Source of the DNA: a virus
DNA length: 46,593 nt
Direction: 5' to 3' (one strand)
Virus record (IMG/VR): IMGVR_UViG_3300005577_000011
Span: 1 to 46,593 of that record
This document shows, piece after piece, positions 27,170 through 42,817 of the stretch. The stretch's first letter is position 1, and each line of letters opens with the position of its first letter. The notes beneath the pieces were generated by a model that saw nothing but the letters and a program-made list of their open reading frames with translations, did no database searches and had not been told where the DNA came from. The position numbers were made by a program, and so were the translations under genes.

Positions 27170-27753
27170 GCGAGAACGAACAGAACATCCGCGACATCTT
27201 CAGTTACAAGAAGCCGACCCCCGAGAAACAGGTCAAGTTCGAGGCGCTGCGCAACGCAGCGATCAACTTCGGGCTCGCCATCGACGAGCACTGCCCTCCG
27301 AGCGCCGATCGCACTGCGGCAATGCGTCAGGTCCAAGACGCGCTGATGACGGCGAATCGCGCGGTGGCCAACGACGGCGCCGGCTACTACGGAGGGTCGG
27401 GAGGGGCGCAGAGCAAGATCATGAGTCCGGCGCCCGGCGTCGGCAGCGCCGGCCCGCAAGGCTTCATCGGCGAGCCCGAGCCCGGCGCGCAGCCCACCTT
27501 CAACCAAGGCCCCTACGACAGCATCGGGGACGCGAAAGAGGTGCTGTTCGACGCGATGGAGAAAACCGGCGAGTGGATGAAAATCTACGAGAGCTTCGGA
27601 GACCCGTCGCACGAGAAGGGCAAGTTCTACATCGGGCCGACGAACTTCGCGACGTTCGGCAAGGATGCCTTCGTGCCGCCGCGGCCCAACATCCCCGCCG
27701 CAGTGGATTTCGGCCACGCCGACAACGACCCGAATCCGCCGCCGAGGCAGTAG
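27166..27753 (+). CDS. Acb2/Tad1-domain protein (predicted anti-CBASS/Thoeris nucleotide sponge)
   Basis: 195 aa. Residues ~12-70 match the Acb2/Tad1 helical-hairpin domain: FSYKKPTPEKQVKFEALR, AAINFGLAIDEHCPPSADR, AAMRQVQDALMTANRAVAN. Known members form multimers that bind and hide cyclic di- and trinucleotides (Acb2) or gcADPR-type signals (Tad1), blocking CBASS or Thoeris effectors. Unlike minimal Acb2, it has a long extension: a Gly/Pro linker (71-115) and a second ordered part (IGDAKEVLFDAMEKTGEWMK, KGKFYIGPTNFATFG). Last gene of its operon, 29 bases before a terminator. Confidence 0.82.
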   Translation: MSENEQNIRDIFSYKKPTPEKQVKFEALRNAAINFGLAIDEHCPPSADRTAAMRQVQDALMTANRAVANDGAGYYGGSGGAQSKIMSPAPGVGSAGPQGFIGEPEPGAQPTFNQGPYDSIGDAKEVLFDAMEKTGEWMKIYESFGDPSHEKGKFYIGPTNFATFGKDAFVPPRPNIPAAVDFGHADNDPNPPPRQ

Positions 27754-28049: not shown

Positions 28050-28172
28050 TCACTGCGCTTCCCGCCCGTTGAAGCAGGGAAGGCAAAGGTTGCAGCCGTC
28101 CGCCTCCATGTAGTCGTCTGCGTGGAGCTGCGCATCACAAAGCCCGCAGTGGTCCGTGTATCCGATCACCAT
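28050..28172 (-). CDS. 40-aa double-CxxC zinc-finger microprotein
   Basis: Start overlaps the upstream stop (TGATG) with GGGAGAAGG before it. Motifs CGLC and CNLCLPC, 18 residues apart, form a classic zinc knuckle or ribbon. Last gene of the recombination operon. The opposite strand also has an open 43-codon frame, which lacks such support. Confidence 0.65.
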   Translation of the reverse strand: MVIGYTDHCGLCDAQLHADDYMEADGCNLCLPCFNGREAQ

Positions 28173-28411
28173 CAGACCTTCTCCCTCGCCACGCTCAGCG
28201 CGTGCGCCTCGTTCAGCGCGTCGATCAGTTCGCGGATCTCGTCGCGCGGCGCGTAGTAGATATCATCATCGTATCGGAATCCGAGAGCGATTTCGCCGTC
28301 CTCGTTGATTCCGACGTCAACAGCTTCCTCGCCTTCGCCGACCGTGCGCACCAACCACAATTTCTTTATGGGCCGCGCGTAGCATTCCGGCCACTTCTTC
28401 AGCTTCGCCAT
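28172..28411 (-). CDS. Hypothetical acidic protein in the recombination operon
   Basis: 79 aa; basic start (MAKLKKWPECYARPIKK), then acidic beta-alpha region (EAVDVGINEDGEIALGF, DEIRELIDALNEAHAL). Lies 10 bases after rusA with a GGAGG-type site. Not recognised. Confidence 0.65.
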   Translation of the reverse strand: MAKLKKWPECYARPIKKLWLVRTVGEGEEAVDVGINEDGEIALGFRYDDDIYYAPRDEIRELIDALNEAHALSVAREKV

Positions 28412-28421
28412 TCGTTCCTCC

Positions 28422-28862
28422 TCAGAAGGGTTCTACGATGATCACCGCGCCCGGCGAGTCCAGAGCGTCGGGATCTTCGTTCACGTACACCTTTGCAGCC
28501 CGCACGTACTCAACTACGCGCGCATCGTCCTCCCAAATGCGTGCCGTGGTCAGCGCGTCCTCGGTGGACCGCAGCAGCTTCGACAGGTCCGGTGTGCCCT
28601 GTGGCCGCGTCGGAGCTCCGTCGCTGATTAGGTGGGCGTTTCTGCCGCTGCGGTAGTGGCTGCGCGGGCGGGCGAAGGTGAAGACCATCTGGACTCGGAC
28701 CGCACCGGCGATCGGGAGCCCACCGTCACGCGCTTCCACCGCTGCGTAGGTCACCGCATCGCGCCACGGCTGCACCTTCTTCGATGACTCGATCATGATG
28801 CCGTGGCCGACGTGGCGCTTCGATCCTTGCGGGGCGGGATTGCCGCGTACGACGATCCTCAT
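28422..28862 (-). CDS. rusA: RusA-family Holliday-junction resolvase
   Basis: 146 aa from ATG 28862. RusA features: N-terminal strand MRIVVRGNPAPQGSKR, basic core, PDLSKLLRSTEDALT with the catalytic-type Asp pair, and IWEDDARVV. It resolves branched intermediates before packaging. The frame is open 46 codons further upstream, but that part is Arg-rich shadow of the preceding gene, and ATG 28862 overlaps that gene's TGA (ATGA). Works with the exonuclease and ATPase of the same operon. Confidence 0.88.
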   Translation of the reverse strand: MRIVVRGNPAPQGSKRHVGHGIMIESSKKVQPWRDAVTYAAVEARDGGLPIAGAVRVQMVFTFARPRSHYRSGRNAHLISDGAPTRPQGTPDLSKLLRSTEDALTTARIWEDDARVVEYVRAAKVYVNEDPDALDSPGAVIIVEPF

Positions 28863-29002
28863 AGTGAGTTGAACTGCTGGCGGTGCCGCTTCACCGTACC
28901 AGTCCCGCCTTCCTCCCGATGGTCGCCGCCTTGGCAGGCCGAGCACACCTTCCCGAAGATAATGCTGTGCGGCGCGCAAGAGGTTGCTTCGCACTCGCAA
29001 AT
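28859..29002 (-). CDS. Cys-rich small protein, start unclear (possible frameshift)
   Basis: Frame ending ATGA-coupled to rusA, with ICECEATSCAPHSIIFGKVC SAC, a likely zinc-binding array. No ATG, GTG or TTG lies at a sensible place in this frame: only ATT at 29002. A GTG at 29046 with a good AAGGAGGGG and GTGA overlap opens the +1-related frame, which loses codon quality just where the Cys-rich frame begins, at TCAAAATTT. A -1 slip there or a sequence error would join them into a ~62-aa protein. Confidence 0.4.
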   Translation of the reverse strand: MCECEATSCAPHSIIFGKVCSACQGGDHREEGGTGTVKRHRQQFNSL

Positions 29003-29042
29003 TTTGAGGCCGCGATCCCCTCCTTGATCTCCTGCTGTCGAG

Positions 29043-29300
29043 TCACATCCCCTCCTTCGCCGCGCACAAGCGGCAGACTTCGGCATCCTTGGGCAACTCC
29101 GCGCGCTGTTTGAGCTTCGCACCGTGACGCGGCAGGAGCGATCCGCGGTTGCACGATTGGGCCAAGTAGAAATCGTTAGCGGACGGGCGCCACCGATGGA
29201 AGACGCCGCCGACGGTTCGGCGCGCGTAGCCGTCCACTTTGCACTCCGCACACAAGCCGTCTACATTCATACGAAATTCGAGAATGCGCCCGTTCATCAT
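29043..29300 (-). CDS. Zinc-finger-like small protein
   Basis: 85 aa from ATGATG at 29300 with GAGG just before. CAEC near the N-terminus, a lone Cys (AQSCNRG) and CRLC at the end form two CxxC pairs with a basic middle. Phage small proteins of this kind often bind nucleic acid; function unknown. The frame is open to 29363 but that would overlap the upstream gene. Confidence 0.6.
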   Translation of the reverse strand: MMNGRILEFRMNVDGLCAECKVDGYARRTVGGVFHRWRPSANDFYLAQSCNRGSLLPRHGAKLKQRAELPKDAEVCRLCAAKEGM

Positions 29301-29328
29301 CCGATCCTCATCTACGCGTCTTGCGCGG

Positions 29329-29553
29329 TCATCCAAGCATGCCAGGCAGCAAGCCCTTGGCAATTTTGGCCGCGCGTTCTTCCCAAAGACGCGCCTCTGT
29401 GCGGCTTTGCGAGGCGCGTTTGATTTCGGCTAGCAACTCTTCGACGCCCGGCACCTCAACCATTTTTTGCTTCAACCGCTGACGGAGCATCGCCGCAGCC
29501 CACGCTGGCGAGGTGTCCGTCTCTTCCTGATGCAGCGTGGTTTTGTAACTCAC
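29329..29553 (-). CDS. Small helical protein in the recombination operon
   Basis: 74 aa from GTG 29553 (GTGA overlap). Charged helices (AAAMLRQRLKQKMVEV, VEELLAEIKRASQSR, LWEERAAKIAKGLLPG). Not recognised. Confidence 0.6.
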   Translation of the reverse strand: MSYKTTLHQEETDTSPAWAAAMLRQRLKQKMVEVPGVEELLAEIKRASQSRTEARLWEERAAKIAKGLLPGMLG

Positions 29554-30278
29554 GCGCTCACCCCCGCCACGAGTTCTTTCCATTGGTCCCAGAAGTCGTG
29601 CGCTGGCGAGCAGCGTATTGCCGCGAATACCCCTCCGTCACCGTGCGAGCCAGCCCATTCGTTGAAGATCGCGCGCACACTGACTGAGCGGTCCGGATTG
29701 CCATGCTCCGCGACGAACTCCGCGACCCTTGGCGCATGGAACGCAACGACCTTCGCCTTCCTGGTCGCCTCGTCTTCCTCGGGCTCGGTGGTCCGGCCGC
29801 TTGAAGTGCCGACCTTCGCGGCAGCCTCAAGCACCTTGTCCGAGTTGAGCATGCCCTGTTTGGAGCCCAGGAGCCACGAGAAGCGCACGAAATGCCAGAA
29901 GGGGTCAGCGGTCGCGACCCGTTCCGCGGCCTCTACGACGCTCTCCAGGAGATACGTGCGACCGTCGTTCTTGCGCTTCCACGTGCGGTACGGGCTGACG
30001 AAGTTGCCGATCGCCCGAACTTTGGGCAGTTTCGGCCGCACACGGTCAGCCATCGCGTTCCACCGCTCGACGGCGCGCGCGAGCTCGGGCGGGATCTTCG
30101 GCATGGCCACGGACGCCTTGAACAGCGTCTCGGTCACTTCCAGTTCGCCGTGAGGGTGCGCATTCGTGGCGCGGGCCAGCATCGCCTTGACGCCCTTCTC
30201 GTCGCCACACTGGTCGACGATCGTCGGGAAGTCCGTCGCGAAGGGGATCGCGGAGTGCAGGATGCAGAAGAAGGTCAT
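29550..30278 (-). CDS. Unknown protein, 242 aa, recombination/replication operon
   Basis: ATG 30278 overlaps the upstream stop (ATGA). Mixed helical, with conserved-looking aromatic segments (FVSPYRTWKRKNDGRTY, DPFWHFVRFSWLLGSK, NEWAGSHGDGGVFAAI). No Walker or nuclease motif found. By position between the ATPase and RusA genes it may be a replication or recombination accessory. Confidence 0.65.
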   Translation of the reverse strand: MTFFCILHSAIPFATDFPTIVDQCGDEKGVKAMLARATNAHPHGELEVTETLFKASVAMPKIPPELARAVERWNAMADRVRPKLPKVRAIGNFVSPYRTWKRKNDGRTYLLESVVEAAERVATADPFWHFVRFSWLLGSKQGMLNSDKVLEAAAKVGTSSGRTTEPEEDEATRKAKVVAFHAPRVAEFVAEHGNPDRSVSVRAIFNEWAGSHGDGGVFAAIRCSPAHDFWDQWKELVAGVSA

Positions 30279-30547
30279 CGGCAGTTCTCGCACCACGCGC
30301 TCTCGCTGGTATTGGTGGTGAGTCGCCCGCACCGCGAGAAGTTCCGGCATTTGCCCGCACGTGGCGCCGGAAGGATCGCGTCCTCGTTGTAGATAGCGGG
30401 CGTGGCGGTGTCGGGGAACGCCACGACGACCATATCAGGATACTTTCGTTGACGCCCGATGAAGATTCCGACGTGCGCACCGGGCGGACGCTTTGCGGCG
30501 ACTCTTTCAGATAACTGCACGTAATCACCGAACTGGTAGTTGATCAT
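30275..30547 (-). CDS. Small protein with SH3-like start and C-terminal zinc ribbon
   Basis: 90 aa. N-terminal FGDYVQLSERVAAKRPPG, then VGIFIGRQRKYPDMVVVAF resembles a KOW/SH3-like barrel. The C-terminus has CRNFSRCGR and WCENC, a likely zinc site. ATGA overlaps at both ends. Unknown role. Confidence 0.6.
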   Translation of the reverse strand: MINYQFGDYVQLSERVAAKRPPGAHVGIFIGRQRKYPDMVVVAFPDTATPAIYNEDAILPAPRAGKCRNFSRCGRLTTNTSESAWCENCR

Positions 30548-31566
30548 TTCGCCAACTCCCGCAGCCTGTCATCCCGCGCCCCAACCAGCTTGTCGAGCAG
30601 CGCGCCCTGTTCGGCGCTCACCAGTTCGGTGATGAGCTGGCTGCATGCGTCGTACGCCTGATTGACCTTCTCGGCGGTCGCCTTGGTGCTGATGCGACCG
30701 ACCGCCACGTCAACGCGCTCCACGAGCGTCTTGTCCGTTGGCGGCGGCGGCGACTGGCGCGGCGGCTTGCCTGCCGATCCACCCTTAGCCCATTCGGCCA
30801 TCAGACGGCCATGCTCTTCGCTGAGCGGCTTCCCCTCCGTTGCGGAAAACATCTTTTTGAACTGCTCGGGGAGCTTGCGCATTAGCTTCTCGCCGACGTT
30901 CTCCGGATTCCACGTCGGCACACCGTTCGCCCCCGGCATCAGCAGAGCGCACACCGTAGCCTCGTACACGAACGGCTTGCCAGCAATCGGCATGAAGCCC
31001 ATCTGAATGACTTCCGTTTTGTCGCCCTTCTTCACCGGCTTGGACTGCTCGTCGGCGCGGAAACAGAGGATAAAGACCGCCTCGGTTCCGAAGGCCAGCA
31101 TGCCGCGGAGGAGTTGCTTGCGTGCGGCCTTCGGTTTCGTCCACGCGAGCATCTTCACCCGCTCTTGCTTCTGCCAGTCGTCACCGCCGAGGCGCCGCAT
31201 TTCGGTTTCTTGGAATTCGATCATTCCGCCTTCGCCGTCGTGTTCGTGGCTCAGGCTATCCACGATGACGATACGCGCGCCTTTGCCCTTGACGGCATGC
31301 GTGATGGCGGCGAGGTAGTCGAGCGAGCCATGAGGCGGTGGAAGCGGTGTGTAGTCGTAGTCAAAGAGATCCGCGTAGTGGAGCCCGCGGCCGGATTCCG
31401 TGTCGATGAAGTTGATGCGCCCGTCGACGACGGACTGGATTCCCTTCGCCAGGAGAAGCGCGGAGAACGTCTTGCCGCCCCCCGATGGCCCGAACAGTCC
31501 GACCCACAGTGGGCGCGGCCCCGGCTCGGCATGGACGGTGGTGAAGGTGCGATCGGGGAGTTTCAT
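30544..31566 (-). CDS. RecA-like ATPase (Sak4-type recombination protein)
   Basis: 340 aa from ATG 31566 (ATGA overlap). Walker A GPSGGGKT (Lys32), a DTE motif (IDTESGRG) and Walker B IVIVDSL (Asp103). Phage ATPases of this AAA_24/Sak4 class load single-strand-annealing or recombination factors onto DNA and usually travel with an exonuclease, as here. The last ~80 residues are a helical tail after a Pro-rich linker. The frame is open 47 codons upstream but that overlaps the previous gene. Confidence 0.8.
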   Translation of the reverse strand: MKLPDRTFTTVHAEPGPRPLWVGLFGPSGGGKTFSALLLAKGIQSVVDGRINFIDTESGRGLHYADLFDYDYTPLPPPHGSLDYLAAITHAVKGKGARIVIVDSLSHEHDGEGGMIEFQETEMRRLGGDDWQKQERVKMLAWTKPKAARKQLLRGMLAFGTEAVFILCFRADEQSKPVKKGDKTEVIQMGFMPIAGKPFVYEATVCALLMPGANGVPTWNPENVGEKLMRKLPEQFKKMFSATEGKPLSEEHGRLMAEWAKGGSAGKPPRQSPPPPTDKTLVERVDVAVGRISTKATAEKVNQAYDACSQLITELVSAEQGALLDKLVGARDDRLRELAK

Positions 31567-31847
31567 GGCTTGGTCTCCGCGCCCGAATCGAACTCTATCC
31601 ACTCGCCGAGTTCCGTATAGCCGAGCACGACGCGGCGGGCCGATCCGTTGGGCATGCACAGATCCAAAGTGAATCCCCCCTCGATCACTTGGCTCCCGTC
31701 CAGACAATCGATGAGACCAGCGGATACGATCGTCGCGCCATTCATGAAGGCGAATTCGCCGCCATTGATCGGTGCTGTGCGTAAGTGGTGCGCACGCTCC
31801 GCGGCAAGGCGTTCCATCTCATAGTCGTCGTATGTGCGCTCGCTCAC
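31563..31847 (-). CDS. Hypothetical protein between exonuclease and ATPase genes
   Basis: 94 aa from GTG 31847 (GTGA overlap). Helical acidic start (YDDYEMERLAAERAHH), then beta-rich part (GGFTLDLCMPNGSARRVV, LGEWIEFDSG). Not recognised. Confidence 0.65.
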   Translation of the reverse strand: MSERTYDDYEMERLAAERAHHLRTAPINGGEFAFMNGATIVSAGLIDCLDGSQVIEGGFTLDLCMPNGSARRVVLGYTELGEWIEFDSGAETKP

Positions 31848-32788
31848 GATTGCGTCTCCTCATTCTCAAACTCGGCGAGCATCCACGCCGGAGGCTCGGG
31901 TGCGTAGACCGGTGAGTATGTCGGCCATTCGTTTGCCGCGAGGCACTTCGCGAACAACTCGGCCGCGCGGTCGTTTCGCTGCCGCGCGATGTGAATCCAC
32001 GCTTCCGGCAGATCGACGAACCGCGCCTGATACGGCGGCGTCATCTCGACGACGGGGAAACGGAAGCGCAGACGCCCCGCCAGATCGACATCCGGATGGC
32101 ACTGCTCTACGCCCTCCAGGTACCACGCCGCCTGAATGCCCCAGCCGTCATCCGCGGCCATCTTCTGAAGCATGCGGTCACTGATGCCCCGGCCGGTGGA
32201 CTTCGGATCGAGCAGGACCATGTGCCGCAACGCCAGATGGTCGACGCGTGCCCGGCAGAGGATCGGCCCGAGCGAGGTAGCCCGCCGCCAAATCAGCGTA
32301 ACTTCCGAGTCGCCGATCGGCCAGTCGTCATACTCGTCGCGCAGCAGGCGGATCATCGACTCGGCCGCGGACTGCACGTGCTCGCCCTTCTCGCGGTTCA
32401 GGACGATCGCGCCGGTCGCTTCCTGGGCCTTCTTCCACGCTGCCGCTTTGCCGCTCCACGTCTTGTACGCGCCGCCCTGGTCGGTCGTGACTGGCGCGTC
32501 CTCGGGGTCGGCAACGAGGCACTGGTTGATCGTGCCCAGGACGAGAGCATGGACCACAGTTCCGAGATCCTGCGCGTCGGACGAATCGAACAACTCCGGC
32601 CACGCCAGTTTCCCATCAGGGAGGCGCTTGGTCAGCTTCGGATGACGAGCAGCGAAATCGGCAGGCGATCCGCTGAATAGCCGCTTGATCCCCGAACTGG
32701 TCAGCGAAGGTTCGGGTGTTGGGTCCTGATGGTACCGCGCAGCGTCGATGTTCGGATGCACTCCGCAGAGGAGATAGTTACTGGACAT
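31844..32788 (-). CDS. RecE/YqaJ-like PD-(D/E)XK exonuclease
   Basis: 314 aa from ATG 32788, GGGAGG upstream. Nuclease core: GTVVHALVLG, CRARVDHL (Asp183), VLLDPKST (Asp194, Lys196) and a following IQAAWYLEG helix with the usual Gln, the pattern of RecB/Exo VIII-type phage exonucleases. It degrades one strand of double-strand ends to start recombination. Starts inside the last codons of the HNH gene (11-base overlap). Forms a recombination set with the ATPase and RusA. Confidence 0.82.
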   Translation of the reverse strand: MSSNYLLCGVHPNIDAARYHQDPTPEPSLTSSGIKRLFSGSPADFAARHPKLTKRLPDGKLAWPELFDSSDAQDLGTVVHALVLGTINQCLVADPEDAPVTTDQGGAYKTWSGKAAAWKKAQEATGAIVLNREKGEHVQSAAESMIRLLRDEYDDWPIGDSEVTLIWRRATSLGPILCRARVDHLALRHMVLLDPKSTGRGISDRMLQKMAADDGWGIQAAWYLEGVEQCHPDVDLAGRLRFRFPVVEMTPPYQARFVDLPEAWIHIARQRNDRAAELFAKCLAANEWPTYSPVYAPEPPAWMLAEFENEETQS

Positions 32789-33281
32789 GCTGGCGGCGCC
32801 TCCCTGCCACGATGTGGCCAATGTATGGCGGACTCGTAGCGTAATCGCGCGCTATCTCCGTTCGGGTTTCGCCGCGCGCATGTCGCCGGCGGATGATCGG
32901 AATTTCGGCGTCAGGTATGTGCGTGCGCGGGTTCGCGTCGCCGCTCAGCCGCATGAACGTGCCGTGACGAATCGCATCGCGGACGTTTTCCGATCGGGTC
33001 ACCCAACGAAGATTTGTGGCGATGTTGTTCGTTGGAACGCCGTCTCGATGCCCAACCTCATGACCCGCTGGCGGCTCGCCGTGAAACGTGATGGTCACCA
33101 TCCGGTGAATCGCCTCGTTCTTTCGGCGACCGTCCGGATGCTTGATGGACACGTAGTAATAGTTGCCTCGGTCCTTGCGCGCCTTAACTGATCGCCATTT
33201 TCCGCCAACCGTGCGCACGCGGCCAAGGTTGCTCACTTCATATTCTGGATTTCGCGGGTACGGCCTAATCTCCTCTCTCAT
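32778..33281 (-). CDS. NUMOD4-HNH endonuclease
   Basis: 167 aa. NUMOD4 start (IRPYPRNPEYEVSNLGRVRT), then HNH core: AIHRMVTITFHG, AGHEVGHRDG, NNIATNLRWVTRSEN. A C-terminal helix-turn-helix-like part (AEIPIIRRRHARGETRTEIA) probably recognises DNA. Free-standing homing endonucleases of this type spread between phage genomes; its insertion within the operon, coupled by ATGA with its upstream neighbour, suggests it is expressed with it. Confidence 0.85.
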   Translation of the reverse strand: MREEIRPYPRNPEYEVSNLGRVRTVGGKWRSVKARKDRGNYYYVSIKHPDGRRKNEAIHRMVTITFHGEPPAGHEVGHRDGVPTNNIATNLRWVTRSENVRDAIRHGTFMRLSGDANPRTHIPDAEIPIIRRRHARGETRTEIARDYATSPPYIGHIVAGRRRQHVQ

Positions 33282-33568
33282 CGCACCTCCGGCGCCGTCG
33301 TCTCGGCGAGATCGAAGCTGTTGACGGCGGCGATCACTTGGGCGAGAGGGAGGTAGGTTTCAACTTCCTGTAGCAGGATGGTGCGTCTCACCTCGACGGG
33401 CCATACGTCATCGATGTACTCAAACTCGACGAACGTCCGCCGCTCTTCGGGGGTTTGATTCTCCGGCCGCGTGCGAACCTGCCGCCATTCTCTGCGCGGT
33501 CGGTCGACCATTTCAATGCTGGTGATCTCGACTCTGTACCGAATCTGTGGTTGAATTGTCTCGTTCAA
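33278..33568 (-). CDS. First gene of the recombination operon, unknown
   Basis: 96 aa from TTG 33568, chosen because AGGAGGAG lies perfectly before it. Beta-rich (YRVEITSIEMVDRPRREW, FVEFEYIDDVWPVEV), with no motif. Its leader contains a hairpin (33589-33614). Confidence 0.65.
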   Translation of the reverse strand: MNETIQPQIRYRVEITSIEMVDRPRREWRQVRTRPENQTPEERRTFVEFEYIDDVWPVEVRRTILLQEVETYLPLAQVIAAVNSFDLAETTAPEVR

Positions 33569-33588
33569 GATTCTCCTCCTGTTTCGCG

Positions 33589-33625
33589 AAGGGCGCGGTT
33601 ACGGCCGCGCCTTTCTGCTTTTTTA
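33589..33625 (+). terminator. Hairpin plus T-run, plus-strand orientation
   Basis: AAGGGCGCGG, loop TTACGG, CCGCGCCTTT, then CTGCTTTTTT. As written it is a plus-strand terminator although no plus gene lies upstream; it could stop antisense transcripts. In the minus direction the hairpin lies in the leader of the recombination operon, 20 bases before its ribosome site, and may act there as an attenuator or pause. Confidence 0.5.
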
Positions 33626-33701
33626 CCTTATCTCCAGATGTGGCGCCTGACCGCGTAGCGAAACCATCCGAACTCGCAGCGCAGACGAAAGAAGGCTGGC
33701 A

Positions 33702-33875
33702 TCAGCGCGCCTCCCGCATGTCGAGCCACGCACGAACTGCCGCATTGCCCCCGCGTCGAAGTAGTTCCGTGTGCTGATGCGGGAAGATGCGGATCGTAAC
33801 CTGTTCCAATCGCTGACCCTTGCTCTCCATCGGCGGGCGTCCGGGTCGTGGGCTGCCCTTCTTCGGCTTCTTCAT
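33702..33875 (-). CDS. Arc/RHH-type repressor, leaderless
   Basis: 57 aa. Basic N-terminus (MKKPKKGSPRPGRPPM), then a strand (LEQVTIRIFPHQH) and helix pair (LLRRGGNAAVRAWLDMRE) as in ribbon-helix-helix proteins. ATG 33875 lies eight bases after a strong -10 and has no SD. First gene of the leftward transcript, facing the early rightward promoter, so it is a good candidate for the lysogeny or early-gene switch. Confidence 0.7.
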   Translation of the reverse strand: MKKPKKGSPRPGRPPMESKGQRLEQVTIRIFPHQHTELLRRGGNAAVRAWLDMREAR

Positions 33876-33883
33876 GAGGAGCC

Positions 33884-33912
33884 AATATAGGCCCTCCAGA
33901 ACATTTTGGCAA
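33884..33912 (-). promoter_or_regulatory. Strong leftward leaderless promoter
   Basis: Minus strand: TTGCCA (33912-33907), 17-base spacer, TATATT (33889-33884), eight bases to ATG 33875. Each hexamer is one mismatch from the sigma70 consensus, the best promoter I see in the window. Confidence 0.8.
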
Positions 33913-33920
33913 GTCCCTTG
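33910..33920. promoter_or_regulatory. Candidate operator between back-to-back promoters
   Basis: CAAGTCCCTTG is an inverted repeat (CAAG/CTTG) overlapping both -35 hexamers. GGCAAG also repeats directly at 33908 and 33928, exactly 20 bases apart, which suits an RHH repressor binding two turns of one DNA face. Confidence 0.45.
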
Positions 33921-33946
33921 ACTTTCAGGCAAGCCGGAAGTACATT
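33918..33946 (+). promoter_or_regulatory. Rightward early promoter, leaderless
   Basis: TTGACT (33918-33923), 17-base spacer, TACATT (33941-33946), six bases to ATG 33953. It is separated from the leftward -35 by five bases, so a repressor bound here would affect both. Confidence 0.75.
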
Positions 33947-33952
33947 GCTCGC

Positions 33953-34069
33953 ATGGAAAGCACGACAGCGCTTTTCGGTGGGAGACGTTGTCATTTCGAC
34001 GCGACGAGCGTCCGAACCGATCCTGGCGTGTGCGCCGGGACGTACAAGGATTTTGAGGAGGAAAGATAA
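33953..34069 (+). CDS. 38-aa leaderless first gene of the early operon
   Basis: ATG 33953 directly follows the rightward promoter; TAA overlaps the next ATG (TAATG), whose ribosome site AGGAGG is inside this frame. The product has two Cys and no known domain. Its position as the first early product resembles small Cro-like or anti-repressor genes, but it has no helix-turn-helix. It may also be only a translated leader. Confidence 0.5.
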   Translation: MESTTALFGGRRCHFDATSVRTDPGVCAGTYKDFEEER

Positions 34070-34248
34070 TGAACGCAGAGCAGATCGTGGGTCGCGCAAC
34101 ACAAGAGGAAGTGCTTGATCTAGTCAGGGAGATCATCCCCTCTCTGACCGAAGAGAACCTGTACGCAATACTCCTCGAAACGCTGACGGATGAGCAGATC
34201 GAAGAGCTTTACATCGCGTACGAGCAGAAATTGAAGGCGCGGCGATGA
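34069..34248 (+). CDS. Small acidic helical protein
   Basis: 59 aa with AGGAGGAAAG before the ATG. Wholly helical and acidic (QEEVLDLVREIIPSLTEEN, LTDEQIEELYIAYEQKL), basic end. Overlaps the next gene (ATGA). Unknown. Confidence 0.65.
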   Translation: MNAEQIVGRATQEEVLDLVREIIPSLTEENLYAILLETLTDEQIEELYIAYEQKLKARR

Positions 34249-34460
34249 CCACCGCGACCCTCTCCGCAGAATCGGAAGACGTCCTGAAGCACCTCGCGAG
34301 CATGCCCGGATTGGGCCATTCGTCGGTCACGAAGGCGCAGTTGTGGGAGATCATGCTCAGCACTGGCGGGGAACTACTTCTCGCTGGCCGCATTTACGAC
34401 ATCACGTCAAAGCACCTGGGCGCGGGCGTCTACCGCGTTTGCACGAAGGTCCGGCCATGA
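34245..34460 (+). CDS. Small early protein, unknown
   Basis: 71 aa, helical (ESEDVLKHLASMPGLG, KAQLWEIMLSTGGELLLAG) ending with a beta segment. ATGA overlaps at both ends show it belongs to the early operon. Confidence 0.65.
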   Translation: MTTATLSAESEDVLKHLASMPGLGHSSVTKAQLWEIMLSTGGELLLAGRIYDITSKHLGAGVYRVCTKVRP

Positions 34461-34660
34461 GCGCCGAACCCCACACCCTCACGCTGAAGTCGCAGCGCGT
34501 CGACAAGGCGCGTCGCGAAATGCTCTACCGCGCAACCTGTTCGTGCGGGTGGAAACTGTCGTATTCGATCACCGCTACGGGCGCTCGCAGAGAACACGCT
34601 GAGCACGTGCAGCAGTTTCTCGGCCCGGAAGCGCAAGAGCGCAGATTGGATGGTGAGTGA
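34457..34660 (+). CDS. Small early protein with CSC segment
   Basis: 67 aa; strands LTLKSQRVDKARREMLYRATCSCGWKLSY-like region split by turns, then a His/Glu-rich helix (ARREHAEHVQQFLG). Two close Cys plus His residues could bind metal. Coupled to both neighbours. Confidence 0.6.
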   Translation: MSAEPHTLTLKSQRVDKARREMLYRATCSCGWKLSYSITATGARREHAEHVQQFLGPEAQERRLDGE

Positions 34661-35121
34661 TGAAGCAAGCCAAGAGAGCGCCCTTGTCGCTGTCCCAATT
34701 GGTAATTACGGCCGTAACGAACAGCCCGGCCAACATGCACGAGGGTAAGCGTGCCTACTTCCCGCACATTCTCATCGGACGGACGAATGAACGCCCGAAG
34801 TTCTACCGCAGCGCCTCTCACGAGGGGTTGCAGGAGTGCCACGGCGAGTACATCACCATCAACGAGACGGGCGCATACGAGTCAACCATGGAAGCCTGCG
34901 ACGCGCTCGCTGAGTTGTTCGCGGCGGCCCCCGAATTGCTGAAAATCGCCGAAGTTGTGGCGTCGGCCGAAGCGCTGTCCGGGCCGGTGCAGGAGTCGGC
35001 GGCGCGGCTGGTCGCGAAGTTGGGGCGTCATCGGTTGCGGTGGGACACGCACGGCGGGCCGTACTTCCACGCTGATGGATCGCCATTCGACGCGCAGGCG
35101 GAAAGGGAGGACGGGCGATGA
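34660..35121 (+). CDS. Unknown early protein, 153 aa
   Basis: ATG 34660 overlaps the previous stop (TGATG); GTG 34657 is an alternative. N-terminal SQLVITAVTNSPANMHEGKR, a polar middle, and a helix ACDALAELFAAAPELLKIAEVV. Acidic C-terminus. Not recognised. Confidence 0.65.
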   Translation: MKQAKRAPLSLSQLVITAVTNSPANMHEGKRAYFPHILIGRTNERPKFYRSASHEGLQECHGEYITINETGAYESTMEACDALAELFAAAPELLKIAEVVASAEALSGPVQESAARLVAKLGRHRLRWDTHGGPYFHADGSPFDAQAEREDGR

Positions 35122-35183
35122 ATCCCGCATACACGACATCAGAGAATGCGCGCTGCGAGGAGTGCGGGGCGCCCGCTGCATGA
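35118..35183 (+). CDS. 21-aa CEECG microprotein
   Basis: ATG 35118 and TGA 35181-35183 both overlap neighbours by ATGA. The short product carries CEECG, half a zinc knuckle, followed downstream by a protein with two more CxxC pairs. Either a real micro-gene or a frame left by a break in a longer zinc-ribbon gene. Confidence 0.45.
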   Translation: MNPAYTTSENARCEECGAPAA

Positions 35184-35380
35184 ACATCGCCCTCGCCCTC
35201 TGCGTGGACTGCGATCGGCGCGTCGAGCTCCACGAAGGCCGATGCCCGATCTGCGCGGGAGCCTCGGTGATGCAGGTCGGCGGTATCGCGTCGCGGTTCG
35301 CGCGGCTACCGTTCCTACGCGTGCTCAGACGGGCTCACGTACCCGTCGACCAGCGGGCGCCGCATTCGGGGCGGAAGTGA
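35180..35380 (+). CDS. Zinc-ribbon small protein
   Basis: 66 aa. CVDC and CPIC, 11 residues between pairs (LCVDCDRRVELHEGRCPICAG region), form a rubredoxin-like zinc ribbon. The C-terminal half is Arg-rich and may bind nucleic acid. Coupled to the 21-aa frame by ATGA. Confidence 0.65.
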   Translation: MNIALALCVDCDRRVELHEGRCPICAGASVMQVGGIASRFARLPFLRVLRRAHVPVDQRAPHSGRK

Positions 35381-35423
35381 GGGTGTTTAAGACTATCGTC
35401 GCGCCTGTTCTGAAAGGGAAAGA

Positions 35424-35446
35424 GCCCGCCGGTCGATTCGGCGGGC
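35424..35446. other. Perfect eight-pair hairpin before the methyltransferase gene
   Basis: GCCCGCCG, loop GTCGATT, CGGCGGGC, ending 11 bases before ATG 35458. No T-run follows on the plus strand; on the minus strand it is followed by TCTTTCCCTTTC, so it could stop leftward transcription. In plus mRNA it could mask or set off the ribosome site. Confidence 0.45.
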
Positions 35447-35457
35447 CGTGGTGAAGA

Positions 35458-35859
35458 ATGGCTTACGTTGATTGGTATCAGGGCGCGCGTCGACAGACTC
35501 ACCAGACGCCCCGCGAGCTGTTTGATCGCCTACACGCACGATTCAACTTCACTATGGACGGCGCGGCCGAGCGGCGCAACCGTCTGCTGAAGCACGCATC
35601 GACGTTCGCGAGGCCGCTGCCGTGGAAGGGCGAGCGCGTGTTCTGCAATCCACCATGGTCGAACATCCGTCCGTTCGTGGAGCTTGCGGAGACCGCTGAT
35701 TTCGCTTGCTTGCTCGTACCGGCGCGAACGAATGCCCGATGGTTTCACCGCGCGCTGAGCCTAGGCGCCCGAGTTGAATTCTTCCTCGGAAAGCCGAAGT
35801 TCGTCGGGAACAAACACACCTCGCCGGTTGACTGCGTTCTCTTGCTCTTCGGCGCGTGA
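35458..35859 (+). CDS. DNA N6-adenine methyltransferase (Dam-type phage family)
   Basis: 133 aa. Matches the short phage N6-adenine methyltransferase family: TPRELFDRLHARFNFTMDGA, then FCNPPWSN (Asn64-Pro-Pro-Trp67, the catalytic DPPY-type motif) and LLVPARTNARWFH, ending with a VDCVLLLF strand. It methylates adenine in phage DNA, giving protection from restriction or timing signals. With the cytosine enzyme at 39755 the phage has two DNA-methylating activities. Confidence 0.85.
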   Translation: MAYVDWYQGARRQTHQTPRELFDRLHARFNFTMDGAAERRNRLLKHASTFARPLPWKGERVFCNPPWSNIRPFVELAETADFACLLVPARTNARWFHRALSLGARVEFFLGKPKFVGNKHTSPVDCVLLLFGA

Positions 35860-35903
35860 CCATCAGCAACGGCAGCAACCCTACCCTGCTGTCGCTCCAG
35901 CGC

Positions 35904-35941
35904 GGCACCGAACGCCCGTGGGTGCCGGTCTTCTTGTTTTT
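35904..35941 (+). terminator. Probable terminator after the methyltransferase gene
   Basis: GGCACC, an 11-base loop, GGTGCC, followed within eight bases by TTGTTTTT. The stem is short and the loop large, so efficiency is doubtful. Together with the promoter at 36118 it separates the two early transcription units. Confidence 0.5.
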
Positions 35942-36054
35942 CCACCTCAAATGAGGCGCGAAAAGAGGAAGAGGTGAGCGATTTCAAAGAAAGGTTGCAC
36001 CAAAGAAAAGAATGAATTTGAATCTGGAGTTGCTTCTGCATCTGCCTCTGAGGT

Positions 36055-36154
36055 GTTACCGAACGTTACATTCCATTACACCGTAGGTAACTCCCTCATT
36101 TTGTTGAATTTTGCCCGTTGACTTTGCGATGAAACGCATGTAACGTCTGTAACG
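36055..36154. promoter_or_regulatory. Cluster of GTTAC/GTAAC operator-like repeats
   Basis: TGTAACG occurs at 36139-36145 and 36148-36154 as direct repeats nine bases apart, and inverted as CGTTACA at 36064-36070. GTTACC (36055) and GGTAAC (36086) form a further inverted pair. The two direct copies cover the -10 and start region of the promoter at 36118-36146, as expected for repressor sites. Confidence 0.6.
36118..36146 (+). promoter_or_regulatory. Promoter for the wHTH replication-like gene
   Basis: TTGACT (36118-36123), 17-base spacer, TAACGT (36141-36146), then 11 bases to ATG 36158 with no SD. The leader would be only a few bases. Overlapped by the TGTAACG repeats. Confidence 0.6.
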
Positions 36155-36157
36155 CAA

Positions 36158-36547
36158 ATGTATACGAGGGTCTTCGAATCCATTCTCGACTCGTCGCTCA
36201 ACTTGCAGAGTGTCCCGACGGCCGCCCGGTGGTTGTGGATCACGATGCTCATCATTGCGGACAAGAATCGTACGGGCGTCGTCGACATGCCGGTTGAGCG
36301 GTTGGCTGCGAAGGCTGGGTTGAGCGTCGATGACACGAAGGCCGCACTCGAACTCCTCGGCGCGCCAGATCCAGAGTCACGCTCGCAGGCTGAAGAGGGG
36401 CGGCGCATCATCCCGATTCGCGAGGACTCAAGCCGCGGATGGCAGCTCGTCAACTGGGAAGAGTACAAGGTGGTGGCGAACGAGGAACAGCAGCGGGAGA
36501 TGACGCGCGAGCGCGTCCGCCGCTTCCGCGAGAAAAGGAAGGGCTGA
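36158..36547 (+). CDS. Winged-helix replication-organiser-like protein
   Basis: 129 aa, of a family common in phages: MYTRVFESILDSSLN, TAARWLWITMLIIADKNRTG, VVDMPVERLAAKAGLS (recognition helix region), DPESRS and WQLVNWEEYKVV, with a basic C-terminus (RERVRRFREKRKG). Such proteins resemble the N-terminal domain of phage replisome organisers and bind origins. No helicase-loader domain follows. Starts just behind its promoter. Confidence 0.72.
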   Translation: MYTRVFESILDSSLNLQSVPTAARWLWITMLIIADKNRTGVVDMPVERLAAKAGLSVDDTKAALELLGAPDPESRSQAEEGRRIIPIREDSSRGWQLVNWEEYKVVANEEQQREMTRERVRRFREKRKG

Positions 36548-36984
36548 TGCCGAGCGCAAACGATATGACCGATGACATGCCCGAAGTTGCGCGGATCGCG
36601 GCATTCGAGATTCACCACGACCGCCTGATGCGCGAGATTGAGCAACTGAAGAAAGATCGAGACTTCTGGAGTTCGGAGGCGAGTCGGCTGCGGGATGATG
36701 TGCGGCGTCTTCAGGACACGTGTGAAAACGAATGGGCCGCTCGCGTGGCCGAACTGATGCGCGAACGCGACAAAGAGCACGGACGGGCGGAGGGGATGCG
36801 TGACGCCATGTTGGCGTACGGCATTCGGCCGATCCCGATGGTCCTGCATTGCCCGAAGTGCCGAGGCCAGCATATCGACCGTGAAGAGTGGGCCACTTAC
36901 CCGCACAAGACGCATCGCTGCGAGCACTGCGGAGAACTCTTTCGCGTTGCTGAGATACCGACTGTCGGCGTGGAGGCTTTGTGA
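36547..36984 (+). CDS. Coiled-coil protein with C-terminal zinc ribbon
   Basis: 145 aa from ATG 36547 (TGATG). A charged coiled coil (HDRLMREIEQLKKDRDFW, ARVAELMRERDKEHGRA) and then a zinc ribbon with CPKCRGQHID and CEHCGELFR, a C-terminal module seen in many phage early proteins. Function not known; nucleic-acid contact likely. Confidence 0.7.
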   Translation: MPSANDMTDDMPEVARIAAFEIHHDRLMREIEQLKKDRDFWSSEASRLRDDVRRLQDTCENEWAARVAELMRERDKEHGRAEGMRDAMLAYGIRPIPMVLHCPKCRGQHIDREEWATYPHKTHRCEHCGELFRVAEIPTVGVEAL

Positions 36985-37175
36985 GTGACGCGACGGTTGA
37001 AGTTGGTCAGCGGGTCACGATAGCGGATTACTCAGAGGTTCATGGTAGATGTGGCGTCGTCTTCAGCGTGCAGGAGAACGGAATCATCATCGTGGAGCTT
37101 GATGGTCACGACGAGACGCTGTGGCCCGTCGAGTCCGGGCAGGTTGAAATTCACGCGTCGCCGAGGAACCCATGA
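36981..37175 (+). CDS. SH3/KOW-like small protein
   Basis: 64 aa from GTG 36981 (GTGA). Beta barrel pattern VEVGQRVTIADYSEVHGRCG, VVFSVQENGIIIVELDGH. Overlaps the next gene by ATGA. Unknown partner. Confidence 0.6.
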   Translation: MSDATVEVGQRVTIADYSEVHGRCGVVFSVQENGIIIVELDGHDETLWPVESGQVEIHASPRNP

Positions 37176-37327
37176 TCGAAGTCAGCATGCGCGCAATCGA
37201 GGTCGTCCTGAATGGCACAGAGCACGAGTCCACGAGCGACACCATCACCGAAATCCGGCGCGTGTTCGAGGCGCTTGCGGACGCTGCGGAAGAGGGTCCG
37301 TCGGTGCCGGTCGTATTCGTTCCGTGA
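37172..37327 (+). CDS. 51-aa small early protein
   Basis: ATGA overlap with the previous gene. Strand-helix-strand pattern (MRAIEVVLNGTEHES, TITEIRRVFEALADAAEE, VPVVFVP). No motif. Last gene before the Arc-family promoter. Confidence 0.6.
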   Translation: MIEVSMRAIEVVLNGTEHESTSDTITEIRRVFEALADAAEEGPSVPVVFVP

Positions 37328-37342
37328 TTTGAAAGATTTTGC

Positions 37343-37371
37343 TTGACGTAGCCGCGCGGTGGCCCCATATT
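37343..37371 (+). promoter_or_regulatory. Leaderless promoter of the Arc-family repressor
   Basis: TTGACG (37343-37348), 17-base spacer, CATATT (37366-37371), seven bases to ATG 37379. No SD. The preceding AAAGATTTTG is AT-rich, possibly an UP-type element. Confidence 0.7.
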
Positions 37372-37378
37372 GCTACCC

Positions 37379-37534
37379 ATGCCGAAGCGGGATGAACGAA
37401 TTGAGGGGCGGCTCAGGTGGTCGCGCGAACTGCATGACAAATTGGCGAAGGAAGCGGCGAAGAACCACCGCAGCCTGAACGCCGAAATCATCGTGCGGCT
37501 GGAGCAATCGTTCTACATCGAAGTCAAGCGGTAG
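37379..37534 (+). CDS. Arc-family ribbon-helix-helix repressor
   Basis: 51 aa, the size of phage P22 Arc. IEGRLRWSRELHDKLAKEA supplies the DNA-binding strand and first helix, and NHRSLNAEIIVRLEQSF the second helix, with the usual S-x-N-x-EI pattern. Expressed from its own leaderless promoter. Probably represses an early or late promoter, perhaps its own. Confidence 0.85.
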   Translation: MPKRDERIEGRLRWSRELHDKLAKEAAKNHRSLNAEIIVRLEQSFYIEVKR

Positions 37535-37546
37535 TTCATTCCTTGG

Positions 37547-37663
37547 ATGTTGGGCGGTGGCGGTAACCGCAACCTAGCGGAACTCCATCGCAGGGGCAGC
37601 GCCGGAAGCATCGTGCCGCCGCCGCTCAACATCGAGGGTGCGAATGGAAGCCCCTGCGAATAG
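37547..37663 (+). CDS. Possible 38-aa gene
   Basis: Open frame from ATG 37547 ending at a TAG that overlaps the next ribosome site. Codon third positions are GC-rich like real genes, and the end VPPPLNIEGANGSPCE is not low-complexity, but no ribosome site precedes the ATG. Weak. Confidence 0.3.
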   Translation: MLGGGGNRNLAELHRRGSAGSIVPPPLNIEGANGSPCE

Positions 37664-37672
37664 GAGGAAAGA

Positions 37673-37966
37673 ATGGCCACCAAGAAATCTTCCGAGCGTC
37701 CTGTCATCGTGACCACCGTCCACAAGGGAGTGTTCTTCGGCTTCGCGGAGGACACGTCCGGCGCAACCATCAAACTGAAACGCGCTCGGCTCTGCGTCTA
37801 CTGGTCGGCGGATCTGCGCGGATTCATGGGGCTCGCATCTGTCGGACCGAACCGCAACTGCAAGATCGGGCCGCCCGCCGACATCGAACTGCGTGACATC
37901 ACTGCTGTCCTTGAAGTTTCGCCGGAAGCCGTCACGAAGTGGGAGGCCGCGCCGTGGAACGGGTAA
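37673..37966 (+). CDS. DUF6948-like small phage protein
   Basis: 97 aa, start after AGGAGGAAAG. The pattern VIVTTVHKGVFFGFAEDTSG, CVYWSADLRGFMGLA, CKIGPPADIELRDITAVLE is familiar from a phage family that I believe is DUF6948. In other genomes it too precedes a Gly-rich repeat gene. Function unknown. Overlaps the next gene by 13 bases. Confidence 0.65.
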   Translation: MATKKSSERPVIVTTVHKGVFFGFAEDTSGATIKLKRARLCVYWSADLRGFMGLASVGPNRNCKIGPPADIELRDITAVLEVSPEAVTKWEAAPWNG

Positions 37967-38253
37967 TCCGTGGTGAACTGCCGACTTTGGCGAATGCCCA
38001 AGTCGGCTACGGCGACGGCTCCGGCGACGGCTCCGGCTACGGCTACGGCTCCGGCTACGGCTACGGCTCCGGCGACGGCGACGGCTCCGGCTCCGGCTAC
38101 GGCTACGGCGACGGCGACGGCTCCGGCTACGGCTACGGCGACGGCGACCAGCCAATGATCGCGGTCCTGAAGCGCTCAGAGGAAAAGGTCAGCGTGCGGA
38201 AGTACGTCATACCGAAGAAGGACACCACGGCGAGCACGGCGAGCGGCGAATAA
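37954..38253 (+). CDS. Gly-Tyr/Asp/Ser dipeptide-repeat protein
   Basis: 99 aa from GTG 37954 with GGGAGG eight bases upstream; the frame is open to GTG 37939. A short N-terminus (ERVIRGELPTLANAQV), then 24 dipeptides Gly-X with X only Tyr, Asp or Ser, then a basic C-terminal part with VIPKKDTTASTASGE. The repeat should be fully disordered, with Tyr spaced as in sticker-type low-complexity proteins. Role unknown. Confidence 0.7.
   Translation: MERVIRGELPTLANAQVGYGDGSGDGSGYGYGSGYGYGSGDGDGSGSGYGYGDGDGSGYGYGDGDQPMIAVLKRSEEKVSVRKYVIPKKDTTASTASGE
38005..38148 (+). repeat. Hexanucleotide tandem array, 24 units
   Basis: 144 bases made only of GGC followed by TAC, GAC or TCC. The units differ by single bases and the order is irregular. 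Such arrays change length by slippage in six-base steps, which would keep the frame open. Confidence 0.95.
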
Positions 38254-38268
38254 CTCGCGCGCTGCGGT

Positions 38269-38520
38269 GGTCGCGCGGTCGCCGGATCTGCCTCCTGCGG
38301 GAGCGTATTCGGCGGACCTCACCGCGCGACCTTCGGAGCGACCCGTCGTGTACCTCTCTGCGCCGATCTTCTCTTCGCCGGGTTGAACGGTACCTCAGCG
38401 GCGGGTCGCTCCGATTCTTTGAACACTCGCGATTGCCAGGCGCAGCAAAACAAGTGGTTCGCCGCCGAACCCGGCCCGCAGTCGAGGTCAAGCGGGTTCA
38501 ACTCCCGTCCGTTCGCAACC
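38269..38520 (+). ncRNA. Highly structured non-coding region with T-arm-like end
   Basis: 281 bases between genes contain long exact inverted repeats. Hairpin I: GGTCGCGCGGT (38269) with ACCGCGCGACC (38321), inside it CGCC/GGCG and CTCC-TGCG-GGAG. Hairpin II: GGAGCGACCCG (38335) with CGGGTCGCTCC (38402), inside it GTACC/GGTAC. Hairpin III: GGTTCG-CCGC-CGAACC (38456-38471). Finally GCGGG-TTCAACT-CCCGT (38492-38508) looks like a tRNA T-arm. No full tRNA can be folded. It lies directly upstream of the RNA ligase gene. Likely a structured RNA; identity unknown. Confidence 0.6.
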
Positions 38521-38534
38521 ATTCAGGAGGAAGC

Positions 38535-39158
38535 ATGAGCAAATACCCGAAGATCGAAACGCTGTACGAGCGCGACGAGGCCACGCACAAGTTGAAGACG
38601 GAACTCGTCCTAAAGAACCGGACCTACAGCCTTATCAAAACGTGGCAGTTCACCGAGAAGATCGACGGCACCAACATCCGCGTGACGTGGGACTTCGCTG
38701 CCCGCAAGATCACGCTCGGCGGGCGAACGGACGCCGCGCAGATTCACGCGGACCTCGTTCGCTGGCTGTACAAGAATGTTTCGACGGAGCGGCTTGCCGA
38801 TGTCTTTCCCGATGTAAACGCCGTCATCTATGGCGAGGGGTACGGCGCCGGAATCCAGAAGGGCGGCGGCTACTCGGCGACGAAGAAACTCATCGTTTTC
38901 GATGTGCTCGTTGACGGCAAATGGTGGCTCAATTGGGAGTCAACCTGCGATGTTGCCAGCAAGCTCGGACTCGACGTCGTTCCGCTCATCGGCGAGATGA
39001 CCCTCGAAGACGCAACGGATTTCGTGCGGCGCGGTTTCCAGTCGCGGCTGAACGGCGGACAGATCGCGGCCGAGGGACTGGTTGGCAAGACGGCCGAGCC
39101 GCTCTTCGACAAGAAGGGCCATCGACTCATCGTGAAGTTGAAGACCAAGGACTTTTGA
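38535..39158 (+). CDS. RNA ligase (Rnl2-like nucleotidyltransferase family)
   Basis: 207 aa, AGGAGG before the ATG. Nucleotidyltransferase motifs in order: I FTEKIDGTN (Lys42 would be adenylylated), III VIYGEGYG (Glu101), IIIa LIVFDVLVDG, IV AEGLVGK, V LIVKLKTK. It would seal nicks or breaks in RNA using ATP, as T4 Rnl2-type enzymes do. No C-terminal extension and no polynucleotide kinase gene were seen. Adjacent to a structured RNA region that may be its partner or substrate. Confidence 0.82.
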   Translation: MSKYPKIETLYERDEATHKLKTELVLKNRTYSLIKTWQFTEKIDGTNIRVTWDFAARKITLGGRTDAAQIHADLVRWLYKNVSTERLADVFPDVNAVIYGEGYGAGIQKGGGYSATKKLIVFDVLVDGKWWLNWESTCDVASKLGLDVVPLIGEMTLEDATDFVRRGFQSRLNGGQIAAEGLVGKTAEPLFDKKGHRLIVKLKTKDF

Positions 39159-39170
39159 AGGAGAAAGACA

Positions 39171-39398
39171 ATGGCATCCCCGAACCTGATCAACCTGCTC
39201 GCGAAACAGTTCCTCAGCCCCAGTAAGATCGACACGACCGAGAAGATGCTGACCACGATGCACGTGGTCGCGGTCGAAGCGAAGGACGCACTGGAGGCCC
39301 TGACCGTCGGCCAACTTCTGACCGAAGTCGGCAAGCTGAAGGTGCGGCTCAGCGCGCAATCGGCGAAGGCTGCGGCCGAGAAGCCTGCCCGAAAGTAA
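39171..39398 (+). CDS. Small helical protein after the RNA ligase
   Basis: 75 aa, GGAGAAAG before the ATG. Helical (NLINLLAKQFLSPSKIDT, VVAVEAKDALEALTVG), basic Ala/Lys end. Unknown; probably co-transcribed with the ligase. Confidence 0.6.
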   Translation: MASPNLINLLAKQFLSPSKIDTTEKMLTTMHVVAVEAKDALEALTVGQLLTEVGKLKVRLSAQSAKAAAEKPARK

Positions 39399-39401
39399 CG
39401 C

Positions 39402-39755
39402 ATGCCAAAGCGCCGCGACATCGCGCAGTTCATCCGAATCCTCCGCGAAGTTGAACCGCGTTGGATGCGCGAACGGTTCACCAACGGGGCGTGCTACGAA
39501 CTGCACCGCATGCTGGTGAGCGCGTGGCCCGAGGGTGAGCCGTGGATTGCTAGATTCGTTCGTGGTGGTCGAATCGGCTGTCATGTTTTCACGCGGTACG
39601 GTGACGAGTATTTCGATATTGCTGGGCCGCATCGTCTCGCGACGATCCTGAAGTACGCACGCAAACAGGCCGGAACCTTCGATCTGATGGACGGATATGA
39701 CCACGCAAATGCGCGCGAAATGAATCCGCGCCGCCTGGCAACGGAACGTTCTTGA
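39402..39755 (+). CDS. Putative papain-like (C-H-D) protein
   Basis: 117 aa. Cys31 in FTNGACYELHRML at a helix start, His61 in RIGCHVF and Asp72 in DEYFDIAG give the order and spacing of a cysteine-peptidase or transglutaminase-like fold. The strand between (GCHVFTRYGDEYFDIAG) is typical of such folds. No substrate can be named. Overlaps the methyltransferase start. Moderate confidence in the fold, low in activity. Confidence 0.5.
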   Translation: MPKRRDIAQFIRILREVEPRWMRERFTNGACYELHRMLVSAWPEGEPWIARFVRGGRIGCHVFTRYGDEYFDIAGPHRLATILKYARKQAGTFDLMDGYDHANAREMNPRRLATERS

Positions 39756-40633
39756 TGCAACCACCCCTGATGATCGATCTGTTCTGCGGGTCATTCGGCT
39801 GGAGTCAGGGCTGGTTGGAGCTCGGCGGGCGAGTCGTCGGTTTCGACCTCGAACACGAGCCACATCACGGGCCTGTGCCGCGCGGCGCGGACCTCGTACT
39901 TCAGGACGTCCGGACCATCAACGGCGCACTGTTCAAGGATGCCTCGCTGATCGTCGCCAGCTCGCCGTGCCAAGAGTTCAGCTACCGCGCGATGCCATGG
40001 AAGCGGGCGAAGGCACTCGGACCGCCGCTGCTCGGCATTGAGCTCTTCGCGCAGGCTGAACGCATTCAACGCGAGGCGATCGCCGCAGCGGGCCACTTCA
40101 TCCCGATGGTTCAGGAGAACGTGCGCGGGGCGCAGAAGTACGTCGGGCGGGCGCGCTGGCACCACGGGAGTTACTACCTGTGGGGCGACGTGCCGGCGCT
40201 GATGCCGATCACGCTGGGGCGTTCCGACGTGAAGAAAGTCGCGATTCAATCGTGGAGCAACTTCGGGAAACCAGGCTATGTCGGTGAGGCGTTCAACCAT
40301 ACCGCCGAGCGCGCCACGAAGAATGACGGCGGCTCATGGTTCAACGTCGCGCACAACAAGGTCCTTGGAAACAACCCTGTCAGACCTCATGGCGGGCAGA
40401 TTCGCCACGATCCGCGGTACCCGCATTTGGACCCGAACACGGCCGATTACGACGGCGTGAAGCAAGGCGGCAACTGGTTCAACGTTGAAGCGTTGGACCG
40501 TGACGGACAGCAGGTAATCGCGCGACGCTCAGGCAGCAAATCGAACGCCCGCAAAGCCGCCTCGGCCCGCATCGCGAAGATTCCTTTCGCGCTCGCCCAG
40601 CACATCGCCAGGACGTACTTCCCGAAAAGGTGA
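39755..40633 (+). CDS. DNA cytosine-C5 methyltransferase
   Basis: 292 aa from ATG 39755 (TGATG). C5-methyltransferase motifs: I MIDLFCGSFGW, IV SSPCQEFS (catalytic Cys72), VI QENVRG (Glu121), and a C-terminal KIPFALAQHIART helix like motif X. The target-recognition part is unusual, with two similar blocks (GGSWFNVAHN and GGNWFNVEAL). Protects phage DNA from restriction enzymes or marks it for other purposes. Confidence 0.88.
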   Translation: MQPPLMIDLFCGSFGWSQGWLELGGRVVGFDLEHEPHHGPVPRGADLVLQDVRTINGALFKDASLIVASSPCQEFSYRAMPWKRAKALGPPLLGIELFAQAERIQREAIAAAGHFIPMVQENVRGAQKYVGRARWHHGSYYLWGDVPALMPITLGRSDVKKVAIQSWSNFGKPGYVGEAFNHTAERATKNDGGSWFNVAHNKVLGNNPVRPHGGQIRHDPRYPHLDPNTADYDGVKQGGNWFNVEALDRDGQQVIARRSGSKSNARKAASARIAKIPFALAQHIARTYFPKR

Positions 40634-41068: not shown

Positions 41069-41071
41069 CGC

Positions 41072-42814: not shown

Positions 42815-42817
42815 CCC

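Follow-up and report, generated by a model that had tools for sequence, protein, structure and literature searches.

The region under study lies in a phage genome of 46,593 nucleotides (IMG/VR record IMGVR_UViG_3300005577_000011), the whole of which was analysed and is referred to here as the window. The two ends of the window form an exact terminal direct repeat of 70 bp (1-70 and 46524-46593), and the junction between them is bridged by sequence from a relative, G001, which shows that this phage genome is complete. The search for close relatives turned up only two: G001 (IMGVR_UViG_3300028380_000029, 46,396 bp), identified through its terminase (95% identity), and the more distant G002 (IMGVR_UViG_3300006914_000005), identified through its capsid (73%). 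A third relative, L021, is more distant still. The named phage records searched yielded no DNA match and no terminase match for the window, and a host search in GTDB genomes detected no relative. Gene calls were made with a codon-model script and show leftward genes from 28050 to 33875 and mostly rightward genes from 34069 to 44279. A PHROGs scan of the larger genes assigned a terminase, an endolysin, exonuclease VIII, RusA, an RNA ligase and methyltransferases, among others, together with a weak match to a replication initiator. No Rfam family and no tRNA was found in the window. Elsewhere, an Acb2/Tad1 hairpin domain (E 1.5e-11), belonging to a family of cyclic nucleotide-binding anti-defence proteins of phages, is encoded at 27166-27753, and a Gly-Tyr-Asp-Ser repeat protein built of GYGDGSG units is encoded at 37987-38253, the called length of which differs among the window, G001 and G002.

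The leftward and rightward arms diverge from an intergenic gap of 77 bp between an ATG at 33875 and an ATG at 33953. The leftward operon opens with a gene for a small basic protein of 57 aa (33702-33875, minus strand) and continues with genes for a RecE-type exonuclease, an AAA ATPase and RusA and an HNH gene. The rightward operon opens with a 38-aa ORF (33953-34069, plus strand), the stop codon of which overlaps the start codon of a 59-aa ORF (TAATG; 34069-34248, plus strand) that is preceded by a Shine-Dalgarno (SD) sequence (GGAGGAAAG), and a replication-initiator-like gene is located further along this arm. The 38-aa ORF matches the second G001 ORF (phmmer 1.8e-13) and appears to join the N-terminal part of the first G001 ORF to the C-terminal part of the second; it may lack an independent function. 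Both this ORF and another at 25350-25520 look like deletion fusions that have retained their leaderless start together with the end of the ORF that follows, and their tails, DPGVCAGTYKDFEEER and FVKLLVWLFS, respectively, occur in G001 in separate ORFs. Within the leftward operon, a strong 12-bp hairpin followed by a T-run (33588-33615, plus strand) separates the 57-aa gene from the gene after it and is conserved in G001. As a terminator this hairpin would act on antisense transcription, and on the minus strand it immediately precedes a TTG start that has an SD sequence. A NUMOD4/HNH endonuclease gene occupies 32778-33281, a place taken in G001 by a 309-aa gene that differs in sequence.

The original prediction placed a near-consensus leftward promoter eight bases before the start of the 57-aa gene and a rightward promoter six bases before the first early ORF, with -35 hexamers five bases apart and no SD sequence at either start. 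Inspection of the sequence together with a promoter scan bore out each of these points. The leftward promoter (33884-33912, minus strand) consists of the -35 hexamer TTGCCA (33912-33907), a 17-nt spacer and the -10 hexamer TATATT (33889-33884), leaving 8 nt (33876-33883) before the ATG at 33875. The rightward promoter (33918-33946, plus strand) consists of TTGACT (33918-33923), a spacer of the same 17 nt and TACATT (33941-33946), leaving 6 nt before the ATG at 33953. The two -35 hexamers are separated at the base level by exactly 5 nt (33913-33917), and no SD sequence precedes either ATG on its own coding strand. The arrangement taken to indicate a leaderless gene, a -10 hexamer located 5-9 nt before an ATG that lacks an SD, is found on both sides of the gap, and by sequence the gap also has the cI/cro-type organization of two back-to-back promoters between divergent genes. 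Scanning of 28.0-46.6 kb returned six promoter-like sites, the top two of which are the leftward and rightward sites described here, compared with a mean of 3.1 in shuffled sequence. Each hexamer pair alone is therefore unremarkable, and the unusual part is their paired placement: when the 77-bp gap was shuffled 20,000 times and the -10 was required to fall 5-9 nt before the ATG, the single-side frequencies were 0.0012 and 0.0014, and both sites never occurred together. Recognition of both promoters by a sigma70-type polymerase is assumed.

Across 33624-33991 of the window, BLAST finds no match to G001 DNA. At the corresponding place, G001 reads TTGCCA-17-TACGAT-7-ATG leftward, with the same -35 hexamer and the same 17-nt spacing as the window, and TTGACT-17-TATGTT-7-ATG rightward, with 14 nt between the -35 hexamers as opposed to the 5 nt in the window. 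In a MAFFT alignment of the window and G001, the hexamers are identical at 19/24 positions compared with 25/53 in the rest of the gap (one-sided Fisher P 0.008), with both -35 hexamers identical at 6/6, and the rightward ORF is identical at 15/18 positions over its first six codons and at 3/15 thereafter. In G002, the orientation of which is reversed, the recombination-side operon begins with a 54-aa ORF that starts 9 nt after TTGACA-17-TAGATT, and the divergent arm has an extended -10 (TGC-TATTCT) that is followed after 6 nt by the ATG of an XRE helix-turn-helix (HTH) gene (L018:7334-7612; E 8.8e-8); this second promoter has no good -35. By geometry, the leaderless design of the window is thus shared by G001 and G002, its closest relatives, but with different small proteins. 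The geometry, the shuffles and the conservation in two relatives all support the prediction of back-to-back, putatively leaderless promoters serving the two early operons.

We also examined a wider sample of 62 loci, comprising the window, G001, G002 and a further 59 phage loci in which the AAA gene is also present. An automatic scan detected five divergent leaderless pairs at an offset of 5-9 nt, in the window, G001, L045, L050 and L055, compared with one pair in five control offsets taken together and one in 12 shuffles of the whole set. The rightward gene encodes a CI-like S24 protein in L050 and L055, and the leftward gene of L055 is HTH_3; the distance between starts is 85 bp in L050, 93 bp in L055 and 77 bp in the window. 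Given that the divergent leaderless layout recurs among phages, the window represents one more case. However, the layout is not universal, as the leftward arm of L021, read by eye, is leadered. Owing to low hexamer scores, the automatic scan missed both the XRE gene g29 (discussed below) and the G002 pair, which were likewise read by eye.

Two candidate operators in this gap were considered. The first, CAAGTCCCTTG (33910-33920), does overlap both -35 hexamers as predicted, but as a palindrome it is at chance level: one with 4-bp arms and a 3-bp loop is present in 24% of shuffles and is not significant. The second rests on copies of GGCAAG at 33908 and 33928, which are indeed 20 bases apart and form part of a 13-nt direct repeat, ACATTTTGGCAAG and ACTTTCAGGCAAG (33901-33933, plus strand), with a 20-bp step. 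A 13-mer direct repeat of this kind arises in 2.6% of shuffles (P 0.026), which is marginal, and the repeat is absent from G001, leaving it a weak candidate operator. No operator conserved between the window and G001 was found. We also considered GGCAAGTCC as a genome-wide operator, and rejected it given 12 near-matches compared with 12.1 expected. Separately, the 12-mer GAAACTTTCGGA is shared exactly between the divergent region of g28 and g29 in the window (25319-25330) and the spacer of the G001 leftward promoter (L012, about 11729-11740). The window contains one exact copy, with near-matches at chance level, and on the basis of this shared sequence an XRE regulator may have the 12-mer as its operator at both places.

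The 57-aa protein had been proposed to be a ribbon-helix-helix (RHH) repressor, an identity that we could not confirm. It has no Pfam match to E 10 and no PHROGs match to E 0.1, and no relatives were detected in IMG/VR, in phage records or among 18,295 ORFs of the fetched loci. A single-sequence AlphaFold model has a pLDDT of 66, three helices, no strand and no PDB match, although models of this kind are unreliable for obligate dimers. Given the lack of a profile match and of relatives, and a low-confidence model with no PDB match, RHH is only a guess, and we refer to the product as a putative small DNA-binding protein. At the place of the 57-aa gene, G001 has a 61-aa ORF with no detectable homology to it. 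Of the genes beside the promoters, the one in the equivalent region of G002 encodes an XRE HTH protein, and the 57-aa protein has no family match.

Several other genes of these phages have a leaderless appearance. The Arc-family gene g59 (37379; E 1.7e-11) is preceded by TTGACG-17-CATATT-7-ATG, an arrangement kept in G001. The g29-type XRE gene is preceded by TTGCTT-17-TAAACT, with 8 nt to the ATG in the window and 7 nt in G002, and between the two phages the hexamers are identical whereas the spacer differs. At a strict cut-off in the window, a leaderless-type promoter precedes three genes that lack a good SD and 0/54 that have one (Fisher P 0.024), which is weak given that it involves only three genes from the window alone. 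A gene for a 474-aa secreted-looking protein (23317-24741) has no SD, TACACT 8 nt before its ATG and a weak -35, and is possibly a further leaderless gene. One could extend these cases to a rule for the phage group, whereby small regulators (the 57-aa protein, g59, g29 and the G002 XRE protein) would systematically be leaderless, SD leaders would be used nearly everywhere else, and regulator-plus-operator cassettes would be swapped at one fixed site with divergent leaderless promoters. We regard this extension as speculative and rather doubtful. If true, synthesis of the leaderless regulators would respond differently to the state of the host ribosomes.

From the promoter geometry observed here and its conservation in relatives, we infer how the region might be transcribed, translated and regulated. 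The reading that we favor with reasonable confidence is a divergent leaderless early control region, probably with a small local regulator. Host RNA polymerase would use both sigma70-type promoters soon after infection, each transcript would begin no more than about 2 nt from the AUG of its first gene, and the first ORFs of both early operons would be translated leaderless. A small regulator encoded in one arm (the 57-aa protein in the window, the HTH protein in G002) would then bind between or over the promoters and turn both arms down, its own gene included. Given the short distance between the -35 elements, a single bound protein, or a single polymerase, could be enough to occlude the two promoters. 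It is highly improbable that the hexamers are fortuitous and that the real promoters are located elsewhere, with genes that lack an SD but are leadered: single promoter-like sites are common enough to invite such a reading, but the joint placement was never reproduced in shuffles and recurs in two relatives. An alternative that shares the promoter reading, and differs only on regulation, is that the divergent promoters are constitutive and have no dedicated local regulator. The layout would then reflect simple compaction of the genome, with short accessory or leader ORFs encoding the 57-aa and 38-aa products. We consider this a real possibility, if not a probable one. It would account for the fact that no operator stands out, for the lack of detectable homology between the proteins encoded at equivalent positions of the window and G001, and for a 38-aa ORF that resembles a deletion fusion; however, one of the two flanking genes in G002 clearly encodes an HTH regulator, and HTH or Arc-type regulators are also the products of other genes with a leaderless appearance in these phages.

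The region had also been interpreted as an early/lysogeny switch, and the early-control part of this interpretation is upheld by the geometry and its conservation, whereas the lysogeny part is not. In a temperate switch, the 57-aa protein, as an RHH maintenance repressor, would silence the rightward promoter in the manner of lambda CI. The cI/cro-like layout is compatible with this, as is the similarity of its 77-bp distance between starts to those of L050 and L055, which carry CI-like S24 genes, and a small RHH protein can regulate lysogeny, as seen for F55 of SSV1 (PMC5569661). However, no match to a tyrosine or serine integrase (PF00589, PF00239) was found in the complete window genome or in the G001 and G002 records, with positive controls, and no integration functions appeared in the PHROGs scan of the larger window genes. 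Furthermore, the 57-aa gene heads the recombination operon, so that the exonuclease, AAA ATPase and RusA would be on in a lysogen, and the RHH fold could not be confirmed. We therefore consider a lysogeny switch unlikely, although the phage may be maintained as an episome, and given the absence of an integrase or resolvase match from the complete genome and the records of its relatives, the region is better read as controlling early genes. A divergent leaderless region does not imply lysogeny. Few cultured phages have been mapped with a compact control design of this kind, in which both messages begin at the AUG. The region adds a comparative case from a phage group with no DNA or terminase match in the named phage records searched, and in it promoter hexamers and start spacing are kept while the intervening DNA and the small neighboring genes turn over.

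Divergent phage promoters under small regulators have precedents. In the immI region of P22, the small RHH regulators Arc and Mnt control divergent promoters; in the window, the Arc-type gene is g59 at 37379 and not the 57-aa gene, and no sequence relation was found. In lambda, the PRM and PR start points are about 82 bp apart, and only the cI side is leaderless. The window resembles lambda OR in having back-to-back promoters of similar spacing, but differs in that lambda CI and Cro bind three known operators. The lambda cI mRNA is leaderless (PMC4488713; PMC9031893), and in the immB region of the telomere phage PY54, RACE identified only one mRNA species each for cI and cro, both leaderless and starting at the AUG (PMC4488713). 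Like PY54, the window has divergent genes, with arms predicted from sequence to be leaderless. However, the repressors of PY54 are identified as CI and Cro, and the Cro operator has been mapped, whereas in the window the family of the 57-aa protein is unconfirmed and neither a conserved operator nor lysogeny genes were found. F55 of SSV1 is a very small RHH-type regulator that uses tandem repeats to act on early promoters (PMC5569661), but SSV1 is an archaeal virus, and in the window the RHH fold is not confirmed and the direct repeat, which is of marginal significance, is not conserved. Bacterial leaderless genes carry a -10-like TANNNT signal ~10-12 bp upstream of the start (PMC3160421). Given PY54 cI/cro, lambda cI and this published signal, the divergent leaderless layout is already known; compared with such TA-led bacterial genes, the window has a full -35/-10 pair on both sides of one short phage region.
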